23,536 nt of DNA from a virus. Shown here piece by piece: positions 1,847 to 15,335 of the stretch; the stretch's first letter is position 1, and every line of letters starts with the position of its first letter. The position numbers and the translations under genes are program-made. Where the stretch lies: positions 1 through 23,536 of IMG/VR virus record IMGVR_UViG_3300019886_000028; one strand, 5' to 3'. The notes beneath the pieces were generated by a model that saw only the letters and a program-made list of their open reading frames with translations, did not search any database and had not been told where the DNA came from.

Positions 1847-4141
1847 TCAATCAATCGAACAAATGTGGTAAAGTTTTCCAACTGTCTTATATTTAGTCAA
1901 CTCTGCTCCTTTCAATTCAACTAGATTACCAGCATCTATTAAAACCTGAAGCGTCCTTTTTAGTGCCGCCGTTCCTCCTAACTTATCATTTAAGAAAGGA
2001 GATAGCTTACCTAAACGATTATTAAGATAGGCATTATTAACAACTTTATCTTTATGCTGAGCATCAATTCCTCTATATTTTCGTATGTAAGATACATCTT
2101 TATCCATATATTCTTTCAAAATACGCAAAGCTTCATTGTATTGTTTAAGCTCAAATGAACTAGACCCAATTTCACCAGCTTCAAAACGCTCAGTTAAAGC
2201 AGCAATATCAGCTTGAACAAGCTTAGCGGCCCATTCCATATGATTGACTTGAATTGTAGGTTCCCACATATGTTCGCCAACAGCAATCAATGCTGACAGC
2301 TTCAAGACTTTAATGTGGGCACGGTTCCAAAGTTGTCTAATTACTTCTTTATTAGAGCTATTAATCTTATTATCGGCAAACTTATCAAAATCATAAAGCA
2401 TCTTAGCTGCTTCAGGACTTGATTGCACATTAATACAACGTCTTGGATTAGAATAATTTATACCTTCACATTGAGCAACTAATGAAGCAACATTTCCAAT
2501 TAACGCTGTAGAAGGATGTATTTCTGTATGATGTTCATTAAGCGCAGGACGATTGCCCTTATACTCAATCAATAAGAAGCGAGGCAATAAGCCTTCACTA
2601 ATCATATCTTCGTTTAATGCTCCATAAAAACGCTCTGGAGTACTTTCCCCAAGAATACTAAAAGAGGGAGAAGGTACAGCACTAGTATTATTCGCCTTGT
2701 CTGAGTAAACGGAGGCATGAAGTATCTCGCTATGACCAGACTTGTTATAAAGGTCAAGAAACATGCGACGCAAACTAACTTCTGATCCGTTAGCATTAGG
2801 GCTGCTCATTTGTTGAAGGCGCAAACCAAACTCGCCCAATAGACTGATAAAGGATTGTGATGTATGACCTAAGTATTTAAATAGGGCTGCACCAGATGAT
2901 ATTTCTGATGGGCCAATGAAATATTGACTAGTCGGAACTTGCATCTTAATTGTATTCATTATCTTATTAATACCAGATGCAGCAGCTTCTTTACCTGCTC
3001 CAGTCATGGCTAAAAGCAGCACGTATTGATTTAATCCTGTACCTGAGATATTGTAGGCTCTACCGCAAATGCCAGCCATAAGCCCTATGGCCGCTGCCAA
3101 GGCTACTTCTGGTACGGGGCGAGGTGCAGCTTGATAAATGAAGCTAGCTATGTCGCCAAGCAATCCCGGTGGAAGCTCAAGATTAGATGACAGTATTGGA
3201 TCAGCTATCGCATTGCTCAACTTTAATTCCAATGCTTCTTTTAAGCTGGATATGTCTATATTTGGTATTTGCGCTAGAGGTTTATTTACTGCATTGCTAT
3301 ATGCACCGGGTAAATAATCCTTACGATTAAACTTCTCAGCTTTATCCTTTGGGCCAATTTTGCGCTGATACCCAAGTTTGCTATTCTTCATTATTCTTAT
3401 AGCTTGCTCAGCGCTGATATCATAGAACACAAGGAAATTCATGAAAGCTAGATCAATAGCTGACCTATCAGAACCTTCAGGATATCCGTTATAATAAAGC
3501 TCTTTAAATTGCTCGCCATTAGCAGCAGAACAAATTTTAGCTATCAATTCCTCATCTGTGCCAATTGCAACTGTAGCGACAGGATTAAGTTGAACTATAT
3601 TAGAATTGGGTCTAAAGGCTTGCTGCAATTTATTCAGCAATTCTTGGCATTCAGCAATAGGCTTATCATTATAAACCTTACCAGTGAAAATCAAGTAATG
3701 GTCGGATGAATAACACTCAACACCCCATTCTTGATTTTTAAATCCGCCTTTACCATCTTCTAAATGAAGTTCACCTTTGCCCACAATGTGACAACCGTTG
3801 CCAGACAGGCTAACTTCACTGTAGCAATTGAAATCGTCATGAATGGACTGATGCACAGGGCCACGCCTTGCTTCAGACTGCGTTTTGTCTAAGTCAATAA
3901 TGAAGTATGGATCAGCTTTAGTTAAAACTAACCCAATACCAATTAAATCATTGGTGCCAACTGCTGCAACGCAATGCTCAAAACTATTCCATGATGTAGG
4001 TCTATCAACGCTAGCTTGCCAACCATTCACTTGAAATAGATTTTTATCAGCCTTACAACATACCCATTGATTGAGTAGGCGCAATTCTTCCGGGATGTTC
4101 ATATACAAATTAGCCACGTCTCGCCCCTTATGGCTAATCAT
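1847..4141 (-). CDS. primase-polymerase / DUF3987-type helicase fusion
   Basis: This 764-residue replication protein has two parts. Residues 1-180 resemble the archaeo-eukaryotic primase-polymerase fold seen in phage NrS-1-type polymerases: an N-terminal NQWVCCK segment, the metal-binding DLD at 83-85, SGNGCHIVG at 113-121, a conserved VE at 141-142 and FTGK at 152-155. Residues 225-285 match the small helical domain that follows in that family (LAFMNFLVFYDISAEQ, then KLGYQRK). From about 325 comes a RecA-fold ATPase of the DUF3987 type, with Walker A AMTGAGKE (378-385) and a Walker B-like FISLLGEFG (431-439). It should unwind and prime DNA at the fork. The ATG overlaps the stop of the upstream regulator gene (ATGA), so the two are coupled. 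Confidence 0.85.
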   Translation of the reverse strand: MISHKGRDVANLYMNIPEELRLLNQWVCCKADKNLFQVNGWQASVDRPTSWNSFEHCVAAVGTNDLIGIGLVLTKADPYFIIDLDKTQSEARRGPVHQSIHDDFNCYSEVSLSGNGCHIVGKGELHLEDGKGGFKNQEWGVECYSSDHYLIFTGKVYNDKPIAECQELLNKLQQAFRPNSNIVQLNPVATVAIGTDEELIAKICSAANGEQFKELYYNGYPEGSDRSAIDLAFMNFLVFYDISAEQAIRIMKNSKLGYQRKIGPKDKAEKFNRKDYLPGAYSNAVNKPLAQIPNIDISSLKEALELKLSNAIADPILSSNLELPPGLLGDIASFIYQAAPRPVPEVALAAAIGLMAGICGRAYNISGTGLNQYVLLLAMTGAGKEAAASGINKIMNTIKMQVPTSQYFIGPSEISSGAALFKYLGHTSQSFISLLGEFGLRLQQMSSPNANGSEVSLRRMFLDLYNKSGHSEILHASVYSDKANNTSAVPSPSFSILGESTPERFYGALNEDMISEGLLPRFLLIEYKGNRPALNEHHTEIHPSTALIGNVASLVAQCEGINYSNPRRCINVQSSPEAAKMLYDFDKFADNKINSSNKEVIRQLWNRAHIKVLKLSALIAVGEHMWEPTIQVNHMEWAAKLVQADIAALTERFEAGEIGSSSFELKQYNEALRILKEYMDKDVSYIRKYRGIDAQHKDKVVNNAYLNNRLGKLSPFLNDKLGGTAALKRTLQVLIDAGNLVELKGAELTKYKTVGKLYHICSID

Positions 4142-5054: not shown

Positions 5055-5426
5055 ATGCCTAATGATATTCGCGAAATTATTAATTCACTTGACGAACAAG
5101 ATAAACAAATGTTTTGCCAGCACCGCACAGAAATGCGACGCAGCTATTTGACTGCCCACAATTCAATTATTGGTGTCCATGCATGGGATGCTTACGATGA
5201 TGCGTTTATGGACATTATCGATTTGAAGCTGGCTATTCTATTTGATAGGGCTGGTAGGTTTGAAGCTGTTAAAGATAAAACTATTGATGACGCTGAAATT
5301 GGGCGCATTGAAGATGAAATTCGTGAGGCTGCAAAAACATTCAAGAACCCTAATTTTGAAACTAGCTTAGCTACTGCTTCAATGAAGGGTAATGGTAAAG
5401 ACAATGGATGGACAAGCAAGCCATGA
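5055..5426 (+). CDS. hypothetical protein (123 aa)
   Basis: This is a 123-residue, helix-rich, acidic protein. The first third (IREIINSLDEQDKQMFCQHR) is amphipathic, the middle contains HAWDAYDDAFMDIIDLKLAIL, and the C-terminal 30 residues are Gly/Asn/Lys-rich and probably disordered. GGAG lies eight bases before the ATG. The 16 bases from that site through the start (5043-5058) recur exactly at the start of the 57-aa gene (11420-11435). Its stop overlaps the next gene's ATG. The function is not recognisable. Confidence 0.75.
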   Translation: MPNDIREIINSLDEQDKQMFCQHRTEMRRSYLTAHNSIIGVHAWDAYDDAFMDIIDLKLAILFDRAGRFEAVKDKTIDDAEIGRIEDEIREAAKTFKNPNFETSLATASMKGNGKDNGWTSKP

Positions 5427-5608
5427 ATGATTATAAGATTGAATGCCGTCCTGAATATCAACATATTAAATATGCTATTTATAGAAAAGAACCTATTTGG
5501 TTTGGAATGAGTTACCAATGGGTAGAAATGGCTAGCTTTGATACTATAGATAAAGCTGAAGCTGCACTATCAGAAACAAAAAACTTCCCTAAATATTATA
5601 GGTATTAA
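5423..5608 (+). CDS. small hypothetical protein (61 aa)
   Basis: The protein is about 61 residues long: a short strand-rich domain (YKIECRPEYQHIKYAIYRK) with several aromatic residues, then WVEMASFDTIDKAEAALS, the W-x-x-x-A-x-F-x-T-x-x-x-A pattern typical of small phage proteins of unknown function. I chose the ATG at 5423, which overlaps the previous stop as ATGA. An in-frame ATG at 5408 would add five residues. No metal or nucleotide site is visible. Confidence 0.65.
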   Translation: MNDYKIECRPEYQHIKYAIYRKEPIWFGMSYQWVEMASFDTIDKAEAALSETKNFPKYYRY

Positions 5609-5609
5609 A

Positions 5610-6119
5610 ATGAACACTTGGCCTCTGCAATCGGCTACTCCTTGGCCTAATGCCCCTTCCAATCCCCTAGACGCCATGTCAGAGGATCAGCTTCTAATGC
5701 TATGGGATAGCAAAAAGAAAGCTATTGAAGTAGCTAAAGAAGAAGAAATGGACTTGCGCAAGTATATTGTGGGCAGGGAATTTCCTAAGAAAACTGAAGG
5801 TATGAATACCAAAGAATTAGGCAATGGTTACCAGCTTAAAGCAGCAGTTAAATATAATTACAATTTGGCTGATAATGATACGGTTGAAGAAAAACTCAAC
5901 AAAATTTCTTCACTTGGAAACATGGGTCCATTTATTGCGGATCGTCTGGTTAGTTGGAAACCATCATTCCTATTGACCGAGTATCGTCAACTGTGCGAAG
6001 ATGAAGCTAAAGGTGATAAGTTTGCTAAAAGTGTTTTGAATATTGTAAACGAAATGCTTACTGTGACTGAAGCTGCGCCTAGCCTTGAGATAAAGGAGCC
6101 GAAAGGTAAGAAGAAATGA
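5610..6119 (+). CDS. conserved phage recombination-cluster protein (DUF7173-like)
   Basis: This 169-residue protein begins with a Pro-rich stretch and continues with a long charged helix (AIEVAKEEEMDLRKYIVGREF), the conserved KKTEGMNTKELGNGYQLKAAV, a central low-complexity NYNLADNDT, then RLVSWKPSFLLTEYRQL and a tail with LEIKEPKGKKK. I recognise this order from phage proteins placed next to Sak4-type ATPases and ssDNA-binding proteins. No biochemical function is established that I know of. The Sak4-like gene follows two genes later, so a role in recombination or replication is likely by context. Confidence 0.6.
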   Translation: MNTWPLQSATPWPNAPSNPLDAMSEDQLLMLWDSKKKAIEVAKEEEMDLRKYIVGREFPKKTEGMNTKELGNGYQLKAAVKYNYNLADNDTVEEKLNKISSLGNMGPFIADRLVSWKPSFLLTEYRQLCEDEAKGDKFAKSVLNIVNEMLTVTEAAPSLEIKEPKGKKK

Positions 6120-8239: not shown

Positions 8240-8878
8240 ATGTCGCCGTACAACGCAACTTTCGACGCTAACCAATTCGAACCACGTCAATCTGCTGGTG
8301 GTCATCCAGTCGGAAATAAGTTTCCATTTGAAATTAGTCACACTGAAGTTAAGCCTACCAAGGATGGTACTGGTGGAATGTTTGTTGTGACATTCACAAC
8401 GCCAGCAGGACAGATTGACTATCGTTACAATCTGTTTAATCAGAGCGCTAAGGCTGTTGAAATTGCTCATGGTCAATTCTCAGCACTTTGCCGCGCTGTT
8501 GGTCGCTATCAGGTTGATTTTAACAATGATGGCGCAATCCTTCGCGGTGCTAAAGGTTGCTTGGATGTTAACTATCAAAAGGGCGAAGAACCTACCGCTG
8601 AGCGTCCTGAAGGTGGTTATGTTGAAGTCAAGAAAATCTATGACGTGAATGGCAATGAACCGGGCAAGGCTCCTGCCCAAGCTGCTCCTGCTCAGGGGTT
8701 TGCCAACCAAGGCCCAGCGCCAGCAGCAGGGCAAGTCCTACAGCAGCAGTCGGGCGGCGGTTGGGGGAATGGTGCCCAGCCTGCGGCAAACGCACCAGCG
8801 GCTTCCCAGCAGACCGCGCAAGCATGGTCTCCCGGTGGTCAAGGAAATACGGCAAATCCACCATGGGGTTCGCGCTAG
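8240..8878 (+). CDS. DUF669-like single-stranded-DNA-binding protein (212 aa)
   Basis: Residues 1-130 form the strand-rich core: KFPFEISHTEVKPTKDGTGG, MFVVTFTTPAG, YNLFNQSAKAVEIAHGQFSA and LCRAVGRYQVDF, as in DUF669-type phage proteins, which act as SSBs beside Sak4 annealases. Residues 140-212 are a Gln/Ala/Pro/Gly-rich disordered tail. Bacterial SSBs end in an acidic tip with Pro-Phe. This one ends NPPWGSR, with no acidic cluster, so it should not recruit host SSB partners in the usual way. The tail is much more GC-rich than the surrounding DNA. AAGGA lies about ten bases before the ATG. The DNA-binding role is inferred from the core pattern and from context. Confidence 0.7.
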   Translation: MSPYNATFDANQFEPRQSAGGHPVGNKFPFEISHTEVKPTKDGTGGMFVVTFTTPAGQIDYRYNLFNQSAKAVEIAHGQFSALCRAVGRYQVDFNNDGAILRGAKGCLDVNYQKGEEPTAERPEGGYVEVKKIYDVNGNEPGKAPAQAAPAQGFANQGPAPAAGQVLQQQSGGGWGNGAQPAANAPAASQQTAQAWSPGGQGNTANPPWGSR

Positions 8879-8974: not shown

Positions 8975-9832
8975 ATGCTTGATTTAAATAATAAAGATGA
9001 CCGCAATAAACTAGAAGAATTGATTACTGATGATATTAATCAGTTTTGCGCAACCTATTATGAAAGTGGCCATAGAAAGCATTTAGGAGCTTCAGAGTTA
9101 GGCGAGGAATGTTGGCGCAAACTCTGGTATGGTTTTAGATGGACTAAACGGCAGGTGCATGACGGCAGAATACTGCGCTTATTCAACGTTGGTCATTCTG
9201 CTGAGCCTCGCTTTATTACTTATTTGCGCGGCATTGGATTTGAAGTTAGGGAGTTTGATGAAAATGGCAAACAGTTTAGAATTAGTGGAGCGAACGGACA
9301 CTACGGTGGTTCCCTTGATGGAATGTGTAAAGCCCCCGCACGCTATGAAATTAGCGAAGATGTTGTACTCCTCAATGAATATAAAACTAATGGAACAGGA
9401 GCAGGTTACACCAATGTAGTCAAAGGGCTACAAAAAGCCAAGCCCAAACACTTTGCGCAAATGAGCCAATACGGTTTTAAAAAAGGTTTAAAGTACGGTC
9501 TATATTTAATTGAAAATAAAAATGACAGTGACATAACGGTTAAGATTGTTATACTTGATTGGAATTTAGGTGCTCAAATGGAGCGCAAGGCTGAAGAAAT
9601 AATTTTTGCTAAAGAGCCTCCCCCGCGCATATCTGATAACCCTGCGTTTCAAGCGTGCCAATGGTGCCATCAAAGAGATATCTGTCACAAAGGAGAACAG
9701 CCTGAACGTAATTGTAGAAGCTGTAGGCAATGTTCGCCAGTCGAAGAAGGACAATGGCATTGCTCTAAATTTAATGATGTTGTGCCTGATGATTTTATAG
9801 TCAAGGGTTGTCCAGATTGGTTGCCAATTTAA
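8975..9832 (+). CDS. Cas4/RecB-like PD-(D/E)XK nuclease with extra zinc module
   Basis: The 285-residue protein shows the catalytic core HSAE (74-77), GGSLDG with Asp115, NEYK with Glu135 and Lys137, and QMSQYG (162-167). Cys46 in GEECWRK together with Cys228, Cys231 and Cys237 (CQWCHQRDIC) matches the four-cysteine cluster of Cas4/AddB-type nucleases, likely Fe-S. A second Cys set at the C-terminus (247, 250, 253, 263, 279; CRSCRQC...C...GCPDW) is extra and probably binds zinc. Such nucleases process DNA ends in recombination and replication, which fits the Sak4 and helicase neighbours. AAAGG lies before the ATG. Confidence 0.8.
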   Translation: MLDLNNKDDRNKLEELITDDINQFCATYYESGHRKHLGASELGEECWRKLWYGFRWTKRQVHDGRILRLFNVGHSAEPRFITYLRGIGFEVREFDENGKQFRISGANGHYGGSLDGMCKAPARYEISEDVVLLNEYKTNGTGAGYTNVVKGLQKAKPKHFAQMSQYGFKKGLKYGLYLIENKNDSDITVKIVILDWNLGAQMERKAEEIIFAKEPPPRISDNPAFQACQWCHQRDICHKGEQPERNCRSCRQCSPVEEGQWHCSKFNDVVPDDFIVKGCPDWLPI

Positions 9833-9833
9833 A

Positions 9834-11429
9834 ATGATAACACCTAGATATTATCAGGAAGAAGCTCTAAAAGCTGTTTACCAATTCTTTATGACACATA
9901 AAGAAGGTAATCCACTTATCGGGCTTCCTACTGGTACTGGCAAGTCAGTACTACCTGCTATTTTTATTAATCGCGTTATGAAGCAATGGCCAAATCAACG
10001 TTTTCTTTTGGTGACGCACGTCAAAGAATTAATCGCGCAAAACGCTAATGTCATGATGAAAGTATGGCCTGAAGCGCCACTTGGAATTTACAGTGCTGGT
10101 TTAAAACTTAAACAAACTGCTCAGCCTATCGTGTTCGGCGGCATTCAAAGTATGATAAGAAATCCTGCTTTATTTGGCCATCGCGATATCGCTTTTGTTG
10201 ATGAAGCTCACTTGGTTTCTGCCAATGACAGCAGCCAATATCAAACTTTTTTTGCTCATTTAAAATTGATTAATCCGAATTTAAAGATTATAGGAATGTC
10301 CGCGACCCTGTACCGCATGGGCATGGGGATGATCACAGAAAACGGCCTTTTCTCGCATGTCGCGTATGACATGACGAATATGGACGGCTTCAATAGGCTG
10401 GTAAATGAAGGTTTTATTTCTCCTTTAATTCCACTCCGCACTAAAACAGAACTAGACATTTCAGACGTTAGCGTACAGCAAGGCGAGTTTGTCGCGACAC
10501 AACTTCAAGGGGCAGTTGATAAAGCTCCTATAACTTTTAAAGCACTTCAGGAATTGGTACATGCCGGGCAATCCAGAAAATCTTGGCTTATCTTTGCATC
10601 AGGAATTGAACACGCTGAACATATCGCTGAGCAACTTGGGGCTTTTGGTGTTGACTGCGCACCTGTCCATTCCAAGCGGCCAGCGGAATATAATGATGCC
10701 GCAATTAAAGCGTTTAAAGCAAATGAGCTTAGAGCTATCGTCAATTACGGAAAGCTTACGACAGGCTTTGATCACCCATCCATCGACTTAATCGGAATGC
10801 TGCGTCCTACGTTATCTGTGCCTCTATGGGTACAAATGTTAGGACGTGGTACTAGGCCAGCAGACGGCAAAAAGAATTGTTTGGTCATGGATTTTGCTCG
10901 TAATACACCGCGTCTAGGACCAATTAATGATCCTCAAATACCCACAAAGAAAAGCTCTGCTCCCGGTGAAATGCCAATTAAAATTTGCGAAAACTGCGGT
11001 ACGTACAATCATATCTCTGCTAGACTTTGCTGTAATTGTGGGGAGCAGTTTAGCTTTCAGCAAAAGTTAGTTGGCAAAGCAGGAAGCGACGAATTAATTA
11101 AAGTTGCTGCAACCGAAGCTGTACCGATCATTGAGACATTCAATGTAGTATCTGCTCACTACGTCAAGCACGATGGAAAATTTGGTAAGCCTCCTACTTT
11201 AAAAGCAACTTATTTCACCAGCGGATTAGCCTTTAAAGAATTTGTTTGCTTGGAACACAATGGAATGGCTGGTAAGATAGCGCGGGATTGGTGGCGACGC
11301 AGGCATAAGGAAGAACCACCTAGGACAGTTGATGAAGCATTAGGGTTTGTTTCGCAGTTACGAGTGCCTAGACAGATTAGAGTGCATGTTAATAAAACTT
11401 ATCCTGAGATTTTAAATGCGGAGTTTTAA
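9834..11429 (+). CDS. SF2 DEAD/DEAH-type DNA helicase with zinc ribbon (531 aa)
   Basis: The helicase motifs are in order: LPTGTGKS (motif I, about 35-42), IAFVDEAHL (motif II, about 122-130), GMSATLYR (motif III), FASG (motif IV), VNYGKLTTGFDHPS (motif V) and QMLGRGTRPADGK (motif VI). A C-terminal zinc ribbon follows (CENCGTYNHISARLCCNCGE, two CxxC pairs). The tail includes a basic DWWRRRHKEE segment that I recall from related phage helicases. It resembles UvsW-like or SSL2-like enzymes that remodel forks and recombination intermediates. The start directly follows the nuclease stop (one base apart), so the two are probably co-expressed. Confidence 0.85.
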   Translation: MITPRYYQEEALKAVYQFFMTHKEGNPLIGLPTGTGKSVLPAIFINRVMKQWPNQRFLLVTHVKELIAQNANVMMKVWPEAPLGIYSAGLKLKQTAQPIVFGGIQSMIRNPALFGHRDIAFVDEAHLVSANDSSQYQTFFAHLKLINPNLKIIGMSATLYRMGMGMITENGLFSHVAYDMTNMDGFNRLVNEGFISPLIPLRTKTELDISDVSVQQGEFVATQLQGAVDKAPITFKALQELVHAGQSRKSWLIFASGIEHAEHIAEQLGAFGVDCAPVHSKRPAEYNDAAIKAFKANELRAIVNYGKLTTGFDHPSIDLIGMLRPTLSVPLWVQMLGRGTRPADGKKNCLVMDFARNTPRLGPINDPQIPTKKSSAPGEMPIKICENCGTYNHISARLCCNCGEQFSFQQKLVGKAGSDELIKVAATEAVPIIETFNVVSAHYVKHDGKFGKPPTLKATYFTSGLAFKEFVCLEHNGMAGKIARDWWRRRHKEEPPRTVDEALGFVSQLRVPRQIRVHVNKTYPEILNAEF

Positions 11430-11829: not shown

Positions 11830-12004
11830 ATATATAAAAGAAAATACAAGATGGTCTATCGGAAATAGCGGCAAGCCTCAACGTTCATGTAAGCAATGCA
11901 ATTCAATAAGAGTTAAATTAAAATATAAAAATGATAAAGCCTTTAGAGAAAAGAAGAAAGCTTATTCCAAGGAATATAAATGTACAAACAACCCAAACCA
12001 ATAA
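11798..12004 (+). CDS. small zinc-type Cys/His protein (68 aa)
   Basis: The product has CLRGHEYIKENTRWSI and SCKQCNSIRVKLKY, giving Cys6, His10, Cys31 and Cys34, a plausible zinc site. Its C-terminal half is very basic (KKKAYSKEYK). The C-x-x-GH-x-x-x-x-NT...R-x-C-x-x-C pattern is common in phage HNH-associated zinc segments, but no nuclease domain follows, so this may be a stand-alone or remnant module. The ATG at 11798 lies within the DUF3310 gene (32-base overlap). A TTG at 11780 is an alternative. Confidence 0.55.
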   Translation: MQKTHCLRGHEYIKENTRWSIGNSGKPQRSCKQCNSIRVKLKYKNDKAFREKKKAYSKEYKCTNNPNQ

Positions 12005-12222
12005 TGCGGCAAAATAATCATGCCGATTTTTATTCAGATGTTCACACTGCATTAGATAAAGTAATTAAAAATCCTATGACAATGCCGTATCAAAACTGTT
12101 TAAACTGTAAGCATTGGAATTTTGGAAAAGATTTGTGTACTAAGTTTGATGCAAAACCTCCGACTGAAATTATTGTTTATAGTTGTCCAGCCTATGAGGA
12201 TGATTTAGACATCCCTTTTTAG
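11980..12222 (+). CDS. small zinc-type protein ending in an SSB-like acidic tip (80 aa)
   Basis: Residues 38 onward read NCLNCKHWNFGKDLCTKFDA and IIVYSCPAYEDDLDIPF. The C-x2-C-x8-C-x-KF...P...C-P pattern matches the extra C-terminal module of the phage's own Cas4-like nuclease (about residues 250-280 there). The last residues, DDLDIPF, closely resemble the bacterial SSB C-terminal tip. AAGGA is well placed before the ATG at 11980. An ATG at 12004 sharing the previous stop has no Shine-Dalgarno. A role in binding host SSB partners or replication proteins is an inference. Confidence 0.6.
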   Translation: MYKQPKPIMRQNNHADFYSDVHTALDKVIKNPMTMPYQNCLNCKHWNFGKDLCTKFDAKPPTEIIVYSCPAYEDDLDIPF

Positions 12223-12406: not shown

Positions 12407-13417
12407 ATGGCACGCGCACCACGCTCAACCAAGACTGAACCTACCAAATCAAGTTTGCTAACTGCTCTAGAGTTCTGCTCATGCGTATCTGATAAGTTAG
12501 GAGCAAGCTATGAAACGCATATTGGTTTGCGAAATCATTGGGCTATTGCTTTCAATGGGATTGTTGCTGCTGGGTCACCAATTGTGGAAGACATTTACGC
12601 TCACCCACACAATTTATTGCTCATCGAAGCTTTGTCAAAATGTGATGATGTTTTTTCATTAACTCAGCTAGACAATGGCAGGCTTTCAATCAAGTCTGGT
12701 AAGTTCAAAGCTGTAGTGCCTTGTCTTGATCCTGCGTTGATGCAAGACGCGCTGCCTGATCCTTTGCTAGCTCCCATCACCAATAAATTTAGGGACGCTG
12801 TAGCGGCTGTTGGCGTACTCGCAAACGAAGATGCTCAACACGTTCTAATGGCTTCTGTGCTTATGAACGGTGCTTCTGTTATCTCTACCAATCGCGTGAT
12901 GTTGCTGGAATACTGGCATGGGTTAGACCTTCCGTTTAATATTCCATTGCCAAAAGAATTTGTAACAGCATTGGTGAAGTGCAAAAAGAATTTAACAGGC
13001 TTTGGATTTAGTCGCTCTAGCGCTACCTTCTATTTCGAAGATGGATGTTGGCTTAGGACGCAATTATATTCTGACGAATGGCCAGATGTTTCGCGCATTC
13101 TAAACCGCGAAGCTAATCTATGGAATATTGATCCGCAGTTTTTTAAAGCTCTAGAAAGTGTTGCGCCATTCTCAGATGATGGTAATGTTTATTCTGATAC
13201 AAATCTTTTAATGTCTCATGCTGATCATGGAATAGGGGCCGAGTTTGAATGTAACGGCATTCCGAAAGGATTTATTTATCCGATTAAACAATTAATGATT
13301 ATGAAACCATACGTTCGCAAAATTGATTATATGGCTAATGGAGTTGCTGATAGTAGCTATTGTCTGGTGTTTCAAGGGGATAGTTTGAGAGGAATGATCA
13401 GTGGTCGTCAACGCTGA
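12407..13417 (+). CDS. DNA polymerase sliding-clamp-like protein (beta-clamp fold, 336 aa)
   Basis: Sequence features resemble the bacterial DNA polymerase III beta clamp. ISTNRVMLLEYW (159-170) stands where ATDGHRLA is found, followed by LPFNIPLPKEFVTALVKC (175-192) as in the 'PRK-x-x-x-E-L' strand-helix. LYSDEWPDVSRIL (220-232) matches the FPDY-x-x-V-I/L-P signature. The length (336) is slightly below the usual 360-375. Clamps ring the DNA and tether polymerases. The gene ends inside the next gene, the family B polymerase (17-base overlap), which supports a joint function. The Asp/Gly/His of the ATDGHR motif are not conserved, so this is a divergent member. No clamp loader is seen in this window. 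Confidence 0.7.
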   Translation: MARAPRSTKTEPTKSSLLTALEFCSCVSDKLGASYETHIGLRNHWAIAFNGIVAAGSPIVEDIYAHPHNLLLIEALSKCDDVFSLTQLDNGRLSIKSGKFKAVVPCLDPALMQDALPDPLLAPITNKFRDAVAAVGVLANEDAQHVLMASVLMNGASVISTNRVMLLEYWHGLDLPFNIPLPKEFVTALVKCKKNLTGFGFSRSSATFYFEDGCWLRTQLYSDEWPDVSRILNREANLWNIDPQFFKALESVAPFSDDGNVYSDTNLLMSHADHGIGAEFECNGIPKGFIYPIKQLMIMKPYVRKIDYMANGVADSSYCLVFQGDSLRGMISGRQR

Positions 13418-15335
13418 AGGTCTAATAACCCTAGACCGCGCTGTAATGCTCAAACCCTATCAGCCTCGCCAATTCATTGAGCGAGAATATCTGACTGATG
13501 CTGAAATTCTAAGCTTCACTAACTATCCTGCGTTTGTGGATGTTGAATGCTATCCAAATTATTTTTTAATCAGTTTTAAAATTAATGGTAAGTTTCTATG
13601 CTTAGAGTGTGGGCAAAATCGTGGCTTCAATCCAAGAATGCTATCTTGGATAATGAACAGTTATAAAACCGTCGGATTTAATTCGATCAAATATGATCTA
13701 TTAATGATATGGCTTGCTTACACTACACAGGACACTCATGTTTTAAAAGATGCTTCAAACGATATCATCGTTAGGGAAATGCGAAAGCAAGACCTTCAAA
13801 AAGAATATCAGTTTTTTTCACCTAAGACTTCTCATGTTGACCTCATTGAAGTAGCTCCACTCAAAGGCTCATTAAAATTATATGGAGCTAGGCTTCATTC
13901 ACCTCGTATTCAGGAATTACCTTATCCAGATACACAAGAATTGAATGAAAAAGAAATTGAAATTGTTCGCAATTATAATTTCAATGACCTTGACGTTACA
14001 GAACAATTATATAATTTTATGAAAGAACGCTTGGAACTTCGCGAGGCTATGAGCATTGAGTATAACGAAGATTTAATGAGCAAGTCTGATGCTCAAATTG
14101 CAGAAGTTATTTTGGCTAAAGAAGTTGGAAAGCTAAACGGAAAGCGACCACAAAGAGCTACAATAGAAGCTGGTACTGTCTACCGCTATATCATTCCAGA
14201 TTATATCCAGTATAAAACGCCAACCTTAAACAGTTTATTAGAACGGCTCAGAGTTGCTAAATTCATTGTACAGCCTTCAGGCAAGATTGCTATTCCTGAA
14301 GAACTAAAGACATCTGTTCAAATTAATAAGGGGGTATACCGTCTTGGAATCGGTGGATTACATTCGTCTGAAGAAACTGTTACATATAAAGCAACGGAAG
14401 ATATGGCTATTGTCGATAGGGACGTGGCTAGCTATTATCCTAGGCTTATCACTACTCTTAAGTTATTTCCCGCATCCTGTGGTCCTAATTTCTTAGTTGC
14501 GTTTAATAAAATTATTGATATTCGTTTAGATGCCAAGAAAAAGAAAATCTTTTCCAGAGATAAAGGATTAAAGATTGTTATCAATGGAACATCAGGTAAG
14601 TTAAGTGATGTTTGGTCTATCTTTTACGCTCCTGATTTAACAATCCAAATGACTGTATCAGGTCAACTAGCGTTGCTAATGTTCATTGAATGGCTGGAGC
14701 TATCAGGTATACAAGTTATTAGCGCTAATACTGACGGCATTGTTATGCTAGTGACAAAAGATAAAGAAGAAACTTTAAAACAAATTGTAGCTCATTGGGA
14801 AAAGACAACAGGATTTGAAACAGAAGAAACTAGATACAAAAGCTATCATGCAAGGGATGTTAATGCTTATTTTGCTGTGAAAATGGACGGTAGCGTTAAA
14901 GTTAAGGGAAATCCTTATTCAGAAGTTGGCTCGCAATCAGGAACACAATTAGATGTTAATCCTTCAATACTTATCTGCTCTGACGCTATCAAATCCTTTC
15001 TTGCTAATGGCAAACCCATTGAGCAAACCATCAGAGAATGCCGAGACTTCACAAGATTTATCAACGTTAGACAAGCAAAGTCTCCCGGTGCCCACAAATC
15101 AGGGGAGTATTTGGGAAAGGTCCTCAGATGGTACTATGCGATTAGTGAAACAGGCTCAATTAACACAGTACAAGCTAATAACAAAGTAGCTGATAGTGAT
15201 GAAGCTAAGCCAGCAATGGATATGCCTAAAGACTGGCCAGACGATTTAAATTACCAATGGTACATAGACAAGGCTAACGAAATATTGTATGAAATTGGAT
15301 ATTTAACTAGACCTAAACAAGTGGAGTTCTTTTGA
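13401..15335 (+). CDS. family B DNA polymerase, compact (644 aa)
   Basis: The exonuclease motifs are present: FVDVEC (Asp47/Glu49), VGFNSIKYDL (Asn94, Asp99) and YNFNDLDVTEQLY (Tyr192, Asp196). The polymerase motifs are A: DVASYYPRLI (Asp341), B: KIVINGTSGK (Lys391, Asn395) and C: SANTDGIVML (Asp445). Motif C has N-T-D-G where D-T-D-S is usual; the second Asp, the catalytic one in the family, remains. At 644 residues it is shorter than the 750-900 of most phage family B enzymes. The GTG start overlaps the clamp gene and has AGAGGA seven bases upstream. The C-terminus ends TRPKQVEFF, which resembles a clamp-binding peptide. It should replicate the phage genome with proofreading. Confidence 0.85.
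   Translation: MVVNAEGLITLDRAVMLKPYQPRQFIEREYLTDAEILSFTNYPAFVDVECYPNYFLISFKINGKFLCLECGQNRGFNPRMLSWIMNSYKTVGFNSIKYDLLMIWLAYTTQDTHVLKDASNDIIVREMRKQDLQKEYQFFSPKTSHVDLIEVAPLKGSLKLYGARLHSPRIQELPYPDTQELNEKEIEIVRNYNFNDLDVTEQLYNFMKERLELREAMSIEYNEDLMSKSDAQIAEVILAKEVGKLNGKRPQRATIEAGTVYRYIIPDYIQYKTPTLNSLLERLRVAKFIVQPSGKIAIPEELKTSVQINKGVYRLGIGGLHSSEETVTYKATEDMAIVDRDVASYYPRLITTLKLFPASCGPNFLVAFNKIIDIRLDAKKKKIFSRDKGLKIVINGTSGKLSDVWSIFYAPDLTIQMTVSGQLALLMFIEWLELSGIQVISANTDGIVMLVTKDKEETLKQIVAHWEKTTGFETEETRYKSYHARDVNAYFAVKMDGSVKVKGNPYSEVGSQSGTQLDVNPSILICSDAIKSFLANGKPIEQTIRECRDFTRFINVRQAKSPGAHKSGEYLGKVLRWYYAISETGSINTVQANNKVADSDEAKPAMDMPKDWPDDLNYQWYIDKANEILYEIGYLTRPKQVEFF

Follow-up and report, generated by a model that had tools for sequence, protein, structure and literature searches.

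Genes at the locus

The window, by which we mean the whole stretch of viral DNA analysed (an IMG/VR virus record of 23,536 nucleotides), carries the gene of a 644-aa family B DNA polymerase with a GTG start (13401..15335; PHROG 1252 and predicted fold) and, upstream of it, that of a 336-aa phage beta-type sliding clamp (12407..13417; PHROG 947 and predicted fold). The clamp ORF and the polymerase start overlap by 17 bases. Coordinates refer to the plus strand unless stated otherwise. Further upstream lie a phage SSB whose C-terminus carries no acidic tip (8240..8878; PHROG 6015), a Cas4-domain exonuclease (8975..9832; PHROG 1990), a DNA helicase (9834..11429; PHROG 16; Pfam ResIII and Helicase_C) and an 80-aa Cys-containing ORF ending in AYEDDLDIPF (11980..12222; PHROG 23504, unknown function). 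A primase/helicase-like protein is encoded on the minus strand (1847..4141; PHROG 3022 DNA primase; Pfam DUF3987). At another locus, L002, the ORF at 5090-5995 between clamp and polymerase resembles, as we take it from a motif, a C5 DNA methyltransferase.

When the 644-aa protein was compared with PHROG 1252 (DNA polymerase), an E-value of 2.7e-179 was obtained; no Pfam family matched either the polymerase or the upstream clamp gene. The AlphaFold model of the polymerase (pLDDT 93.3, pTM 0.89) was aligned using VIA-align with archaeal PolB 7b0f (Z 16.6, rmsd 6.2, 435 residues aligned), E. coli Pol II 3k5o (Z 14.8) and RB69 gp43 4khn (Z 13.8), in the last case through residue 644. Judged by this predicted fold, which has both the exonuclease and the polymerase domain, the enzyme is a family B polymerase (PolB).

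The polymerase ends in ...TRPKQVEFF, followed by a TGA stop at 15333-15335. The sequence-only reading had it ending in KQVEFF from position 15316; the ending stands, while 15316 falls within the Lys codon, the codons of KQVEFF occupying 15315-15332. In the model the last helix covers residues 618-631 and is followed by a short tail (residues 632-639; 15294..15317), which bears the tag QVEFF (residues 640-644; 15318..15332), a clamp-binding peptide proposed from sequence and conservation. The final four residues have a mean pLDDT of 68, and the tag appears to take up the flexible end or loop position expected of a clamp motif.

The 336-aa protein matched PHROG 947 ('DNA polymerase processivity factor') with an E-value of 1.2e-50. 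When its AlphaFold model (pLDDT 91.8, pTM 0.84) was submitted to Foldseek, the matches listed were mostly bacterial beta clamps (best E-value 2.5e-17), and VIA-align superposed it on the Caulobacter beta clamp with Z 27.2, rmsd 2.6 and 14% identity over 316 residues, spanning model residues 13-336, that is, to the last residue. Pfam clamp families matched none of 63 clamp relatives (0/63), a PDB sequence search with the protein found no beta clamp, and hhalign of the clamp family against E. coli beta gave a probability of 0.7%. Because the Pfam and PDB sequence searches found no clamp, the beta-clamp call rests on the fold: the protein appears to be a beta-type clamp by its modelled structure and not a member of the DnaN family by sequence. 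Compared with beta clamps, the phage clamp shows 9-18% identity and lacks a Pfam signature. The clamp-like gene that had been noticed directly upstream of the polymerase can thus be assigned the beta-clamp fold.

Conservation of the polymerase C-terminus

The bacterial clamp-binding motif is given as Q-aliphatic-x-[L/M]-[F/L] in the motif definition of PMC11139829. When QVEFF was set against this definition, Q640 (position 1), V641 (position 2) and F644 (position 5) all conformed, and position 4, where the published host consensus has Leu or Met, was F643. Since position 4 is Phe where that definition wants Leu or Met, QVEFF is best filed as a variant, and not a strict member, of the bacterial motif. 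E. coli Pol II, which the sequence-only reading had invoked as a family B enzyme with a clamp motif at its extreme C-terminus, does end in ...TGQLGLF. With it and with the bacterial motif QL(S/D)LF the phage tag shares the Gln, the aliphatic residue, the free third position, the last Phe and the location at the C-terminus of a PolB, but it has Phe at position 4.

The nearest polymerases in IMG/VR (69% and 65% identity) end in QVDFFA and QLQFF, respectively. A set of 76 non-redundant PolBs was drawn from the side of the clamp tree (see below) on which the window falls. In this set, Q is found at position -5 in 42 and I, L or V at -4 in 43; position -3 shows no preference; -2 is F or L in 72 (F in 60, L in 12) and -1 is F or W in 63. 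An exact Q..[FL][FW] end is present in 41/76 and an FF or LF end in 59/76. In the window's own 14-row clamp clade, 13 polymerases end exactly in Q[ILV]xFF, the exception being L001 with QVDFFA. Across 21,621 ORFs of at least 60 aa from 332 loci (overlapping loci included), only 56 end in Q..FF and 54 of these belong to this polymerase family, a concentration beyond chance. Read from these alignments, the tail has the pattern expected of a short linear motif rather than of general similarity. The original proposal had staked itself on the last five residues being conserved among relatives, and they are, as a Q-aliphatic-x-F-F motif. When the other ORFs were inspected for further clamp clients with the same tag, none was convincing (overlapping loci included; not every ORF above 500 aa was confirmed to be a polymerase).

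Tag presence and clamp presence

Polymerases more than 90% identical were removed, which reduced the set from 231 to 178. The tag patterns were written after the sequence listings had been inspected, and the tag and clamp counts are therefore not blind. Among PolBs, 87 of 96 with a clamp were tagged as compared to 4 of 16 without one (Fisher, 8.5e-8); among family A polymerases (PolA), the corresponding counts were 42 of 43 and 1 of 23 (Fisher, 2.8e-15). A looser C-terminal pattern matched 69/96 clamp-bearing PolBs against 41 of 1,081 other ORFs of at least 250 aa (3.8%), and the background of the N-terminal patterns in the same 1,081 ORFs was 6.3%. A search of 19 clampless PolB loci over the full length of their contigs gave no clamp match (positive controls found, 6/6), nor was one found in the 17 clampless PolA contigs that the search covered, a part of all such contigs (controls found, 2/2); some contigs in both sets are fragments.

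Nine clamp-bearing PolBs were missed by the patterns. Three of them (L147, L132 and L113) have G-x-(F/W)-W tags by eye, and in L153, L149 and L144 such tags are seen, again by eye, farther upstream. A clamp without a clear tag was observed for PolBs L136, L169 and L138 and for PolA L198. Conversely, PolA L197 has an FFWDD tag and no clamp was found on its 59-kb contig, and PolBs L162, L140, L109 and L163 are tagged and clampless on contigs of at most 13.2 kb. Independent-pair tests on the polymerase trees yielded 1 to 4 pairs (median p 1) and were underpowered. Because these tests had too few pairs, the presence-absence counts are to be read as partly reflecting common ancestry.

Two tag forms and the clamp tree

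Some clamps adjoin an unrelated PolA instead of a PolB. The PolA start was M/L/V-F-F-D-D or F-L-F-D-E in 12/12 aligned cases, and most PolAs without a clamp start differently. The PolBs of phages Pavpe01 and Shy start with MFFDDLDLAP. Clamp-adjacent PolAs and PolBs share FFDD-type starts, so that much the same peptide is carried by non-homologous enzymes that share the clamp. A PolA stands in place of a PolB beside the same clamp in L011, L012, L038, L041, L061, L066-L069, L071, L082 and others. The PolA of phage SD350 (Rosemountvirus) begins with MSFLFDSFEG.

A second tag form was found with a more distant clamp, as in MARSDAIGFFWEDRP (PolB L104) and MRNDSIGLFWEDIP (PolA L201). The L099 polymerase, whose tag was mislabelled in the tree, begins with MARSDSIGFFWQDMP. 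For phage JenP2 (Nonagvirus; host field E. coli K-12 MG1655) we recorded MRKDAIGFFWEDLPP, and its clamp ends in RGVIVGFRL. Clamp clade 1 goes with a C-terminal Q-aliphatic-x-F-F or an N-terminal MFFDD, and clade 2 with an N-terminal G-x-F-W-x-D (FW form). The first N-terminal pattern missed GMFWMD, GFFWND and GLWWRD; relaxed patterns were added post hoc and both counts are given.

When a tree was drawn for 134 clamps, one starred branch set 41 clamps with FW tags apart from 93 with tags of the C-terminal or FFDD kind. PolA and PolB are present on either side, the FW side consisting of 21 PolA and 20 PolB loci, and 40/41 FW-side clamps are accompanied by an FW tag under the relaxed pattern. On this tree the tag form changes once and the polymerase family 18 times, the single change being counted after PolBs L063 and L032 had been reassigned by hand to the FF form; in three shuffles of tag form, 32 to 36 changes were needed. 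The FW calls in L063 (which ends in LLFT) and L032 (which ends in QIKFF) were rejected as relaxed-pattern matches in stretches that are not tag-like. The N-F-D-D matches of L028 and L030 are unlikely to be tags either, and each of these polymerases has a C-terminal tag. A more careful tree of 65 rows was also built, from which most long-branch rows were omitted and the remainder thinned by hand. Here the tag-form split received a support of 100/100 and was present in 200/200 bootstrap trees; the tag form again changes once, and for the polymerase family there are 11 changes, of which supported branches force at least 6. Read from these sequences, replacement of one polymerase by a non-homologous one beside a retained clamp appears to have occurred repeatedly.

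A further scan, seeded with the FW-side clamps, added 43 non-redundant polymerases including L338. Of 42 new polymerases with FW-side clamps, 30 fit the unchanged FW pattern and all 42 the relaxed one; an FFDD or C-terminal tag, sought with the same patterns, was found in none of them. L338, whose PolB ends in PVQMDFF, was the sole locus with a clamp from the scan of bacterial genome contigs. It is a contig of a Patescibacteria MAG with a clamp relative and is probably of phage origin, having been binned with the MAG.

These trees bear on whether the tail might bind the beta clamp of the host, either in place of the phage clamp or in addition to it, the neighbouring gene then having another job. 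QVEFF does resemble the host motif, and QLGLF is the C-terminal end of E. coli Pol II; moreover, the clampless PolBs L162 (QLDLF) and L140 (QMELF) look like host-clamp binders. The form of the tag, however, follows the clade of the phage clamp with one change on the tree, no tag was detected by the patterns used in 12/16 clampless PolBs and 22/23 clampless PolAs, and the FW form has a Trp, an exchange of Phe for Trp being reported by the review PMC11139829 to make one motif bind E. coli beta less well. Because the tag form tracks the phage clamp, we regard the host clamp as an unlikely partner. The endings of L162 and L140, which lie near the C-terminus, are nearer to the host consensus than is the tag of the window, and these two polymerases are possible host-clamp users.

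We also considered that the ends are alike merely from kinship of the polymerases, or from recombination that kept the first codons beside the clamp gene. The N-terminal tags do sit near the clamp-polymerase junction, and recombination at this place could take them with the clamp gene. Such an origin fails for the C-terminal tags, many of which belong to PolBs separated from the clamp gene by hundreds of bases, for a free third position amid fixed neighbours and for the lack of tags where there is no clamp, and we consider it the least probable of the explanations weighed.

Groove residues of the clamp

The subsite I residues of E. coli beta were taken from the groove description in PMC11139829. 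They were mapped onto the phage clamp through an hhalign alignment to E. coli beta that is weak but collinear, with the C-terminal residues paired by hand, end to end. Clamp residues 161-166 (12887..12904) lie opposite beta T172-L177 of subsite I, and residues 225-232, WPDVSRIL (13079..13102), opposite beta 241-248, which include P242, R246 and V247; both stretches were placed by hhalign and column counts. The structural alignment sets the C-terminal strand RGMISGRQR (residues 328-336; 13388..13414) against the beta C-terminus, with residue 336 opposite beta 366/372.

Beta T172 corresponds to clamp T161 (T in 60/63 alignment rows), L177 to L166 (L, I or M in 61/63), P242 to P226 (kept in 60/63) and V247 to I231 (I, V or L in 63/63). 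The phage clamp, which has the same fold as E. coli beta (DnaN) over about 316 residues, keeps these four equivalents or replaces them conservatively, and subsite I appears to retain some of its hydrophobic lining. The equivalents of V360, M362, P363, M364 and R246 are changed in the phage clamps. At the C-terminus, the phage clamps have RGxIxGR in contrast to VVMPMRL in E. coli beta; R328 is present in 63/63 rows and G329 in 62/63. The equivalents of G174, M362 and M364 are split by clamp clade (mostly R/G, A/S and R versus N, I/V and M) and are, on this alignment, candidates for what determines the tag form.

SSB-like tips and clamp loading

The end of the 80-aa ORF upstream of the clamp, AYEDDLDIPF, resembles the acidic tip of SSB. 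The clamps of phages 73, KL1, Kmi2C, RcMotherGoose and others themselves end in SSB-like tips of the DDDIPF type; on the C-terminus of the clamp such acidic tips were noted in L004, L007, L008, L013, L075, L114 and others. In loci whose clamp has no tip, one is often found on a small Cys-containing ORF immediately upstream, as in the window. Among the 92 clamps that share the window's side of the tree and have enough upstream DNA, the tip is on the clamp in 15, on the small ORF in 41 and on both in 0 (Fisher, 7.7e-5); neither was detected by pattern in 36/92, among them L070, which ends in SSNDIPF. On the FW side, the tip is on the clamp in 2/38 and on the small ORF in 2/38. Contigs with a clampless PolA (L228, L229, L231, L232, L239, L242 and others) encode a protein of about 510 aa with an SSB-like tip, its end consisting of an LRVW(W/F)VP stretch and DDDEIPF-like residues.

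The annotation of phage 73, a complete genome, contains no clamp loader. The same gap was noted in a paper on Aquificae viruses that encode a beta clamp of their own (PMC7689252). One idea is that the tip may recruit host proteins that bind SSB, e.g. the chi subunit of the clamp loader or primase.

The gene neighbourhood also bears on whether the tag could bind another replication partner (SSB, primase or helicase) that was inherited along with the clamp. Next to the polymerase of JenP2 and of SD350, no replication gene other than the clamp is annotated; the remaining near neighbours are queuosine-pathway, nucleotide-metabolism and unknown genes. Together with the match of the tail to a known clamp motif pattern, this makes such a partner quite improbable, and we keep to the phage clamp as the partner of the tag.

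Proposed clamp-polymerase pairing

We consider it very probable that QVEFF is a clamp-binding tag on a flexible tail, which docks the polymerase onto the phage's own beta-type clamp. We infer that the peptide binds the groove, that processivity is gained and that the phage clamp is the partner: the last five residues would dock into the hydrophobic groove of the clamp encoded just upstream, and docking would tether the polymerase to the DNA for processive synthesis, much as QLGLF of E. coli Pol II does on the host clamp. The tag may be seen as a movable module, since nearly every polymerase encoded with a clamp, PolA or PolB, has one at one of its ends, in the form (Q-aliphatic-x-F-F or MFFDD, or else G-x-F-W-x-D) that accompanies the clade of the clamp. 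The dedicated phage clamp-polymerase pair suggested by the sequence-only reading gains support, because the tail is conserved and linked to the clamp, and because in both of the polymerase families, which are unrelated, its form follows the clade of the clamp.

Beyond this pair, we think it reasonably likely, as one joint claim, that there are two mutually exclusive clamp-tag codes set by the clamp clade, with a transferable tag that can switch ends; that the tag was kept, or re-acquired in the right form, at each replacement between PolA and PolB; and that the codes are orthogonal to each other and the FW form also to the host clamp.

Several known systems can be compared with this arrangement. 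The gp43 of T4 and RB69 is a family B polymerase whose C-terminus contacts the clamp gp45, and T4 has a trimeric clamp of the PCNA type and its own clamp loader. The window likewise encodes a phage PolB, whose model aligned with gp43 to the last residue, but its clamp is of the beta type. Unlike the bacterial motif, the tags of the phage relatives also occur as an N-terminal MFFDD or G-x-F-W-x-D, and on PolA as well. The clamp motif of Hda is of the QL type. It sits in a disordered N-terminus, as described in PMC11139829; the N-terminal placement is alike, but the protein is no polymerase and the motif differs from the MFFDD and FW forms. In phages DLP1 and DLP2, the polymerase and a 'replicative clamp' are neighbours, and no tag is named in the text consulted (PMC4559383). 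Our literature searches listed no publication on these polymerase tags.

With the contact named, an annotation of 'processivity factor' becomes a testable clamp-polymerase pair, and the phages concerned include known groups that infect Pseudomonas, Xanthomonas and E. coli. The question of how a phage clamp is loaded onto DNA without an obvious loader is also made sharper. If the two codes hold, these phages would provide a set of naturally occurring, orthogonal couplings between clamp and polymerase, and would show how a replisome exchanges its polymerase family while retaining its clamp.
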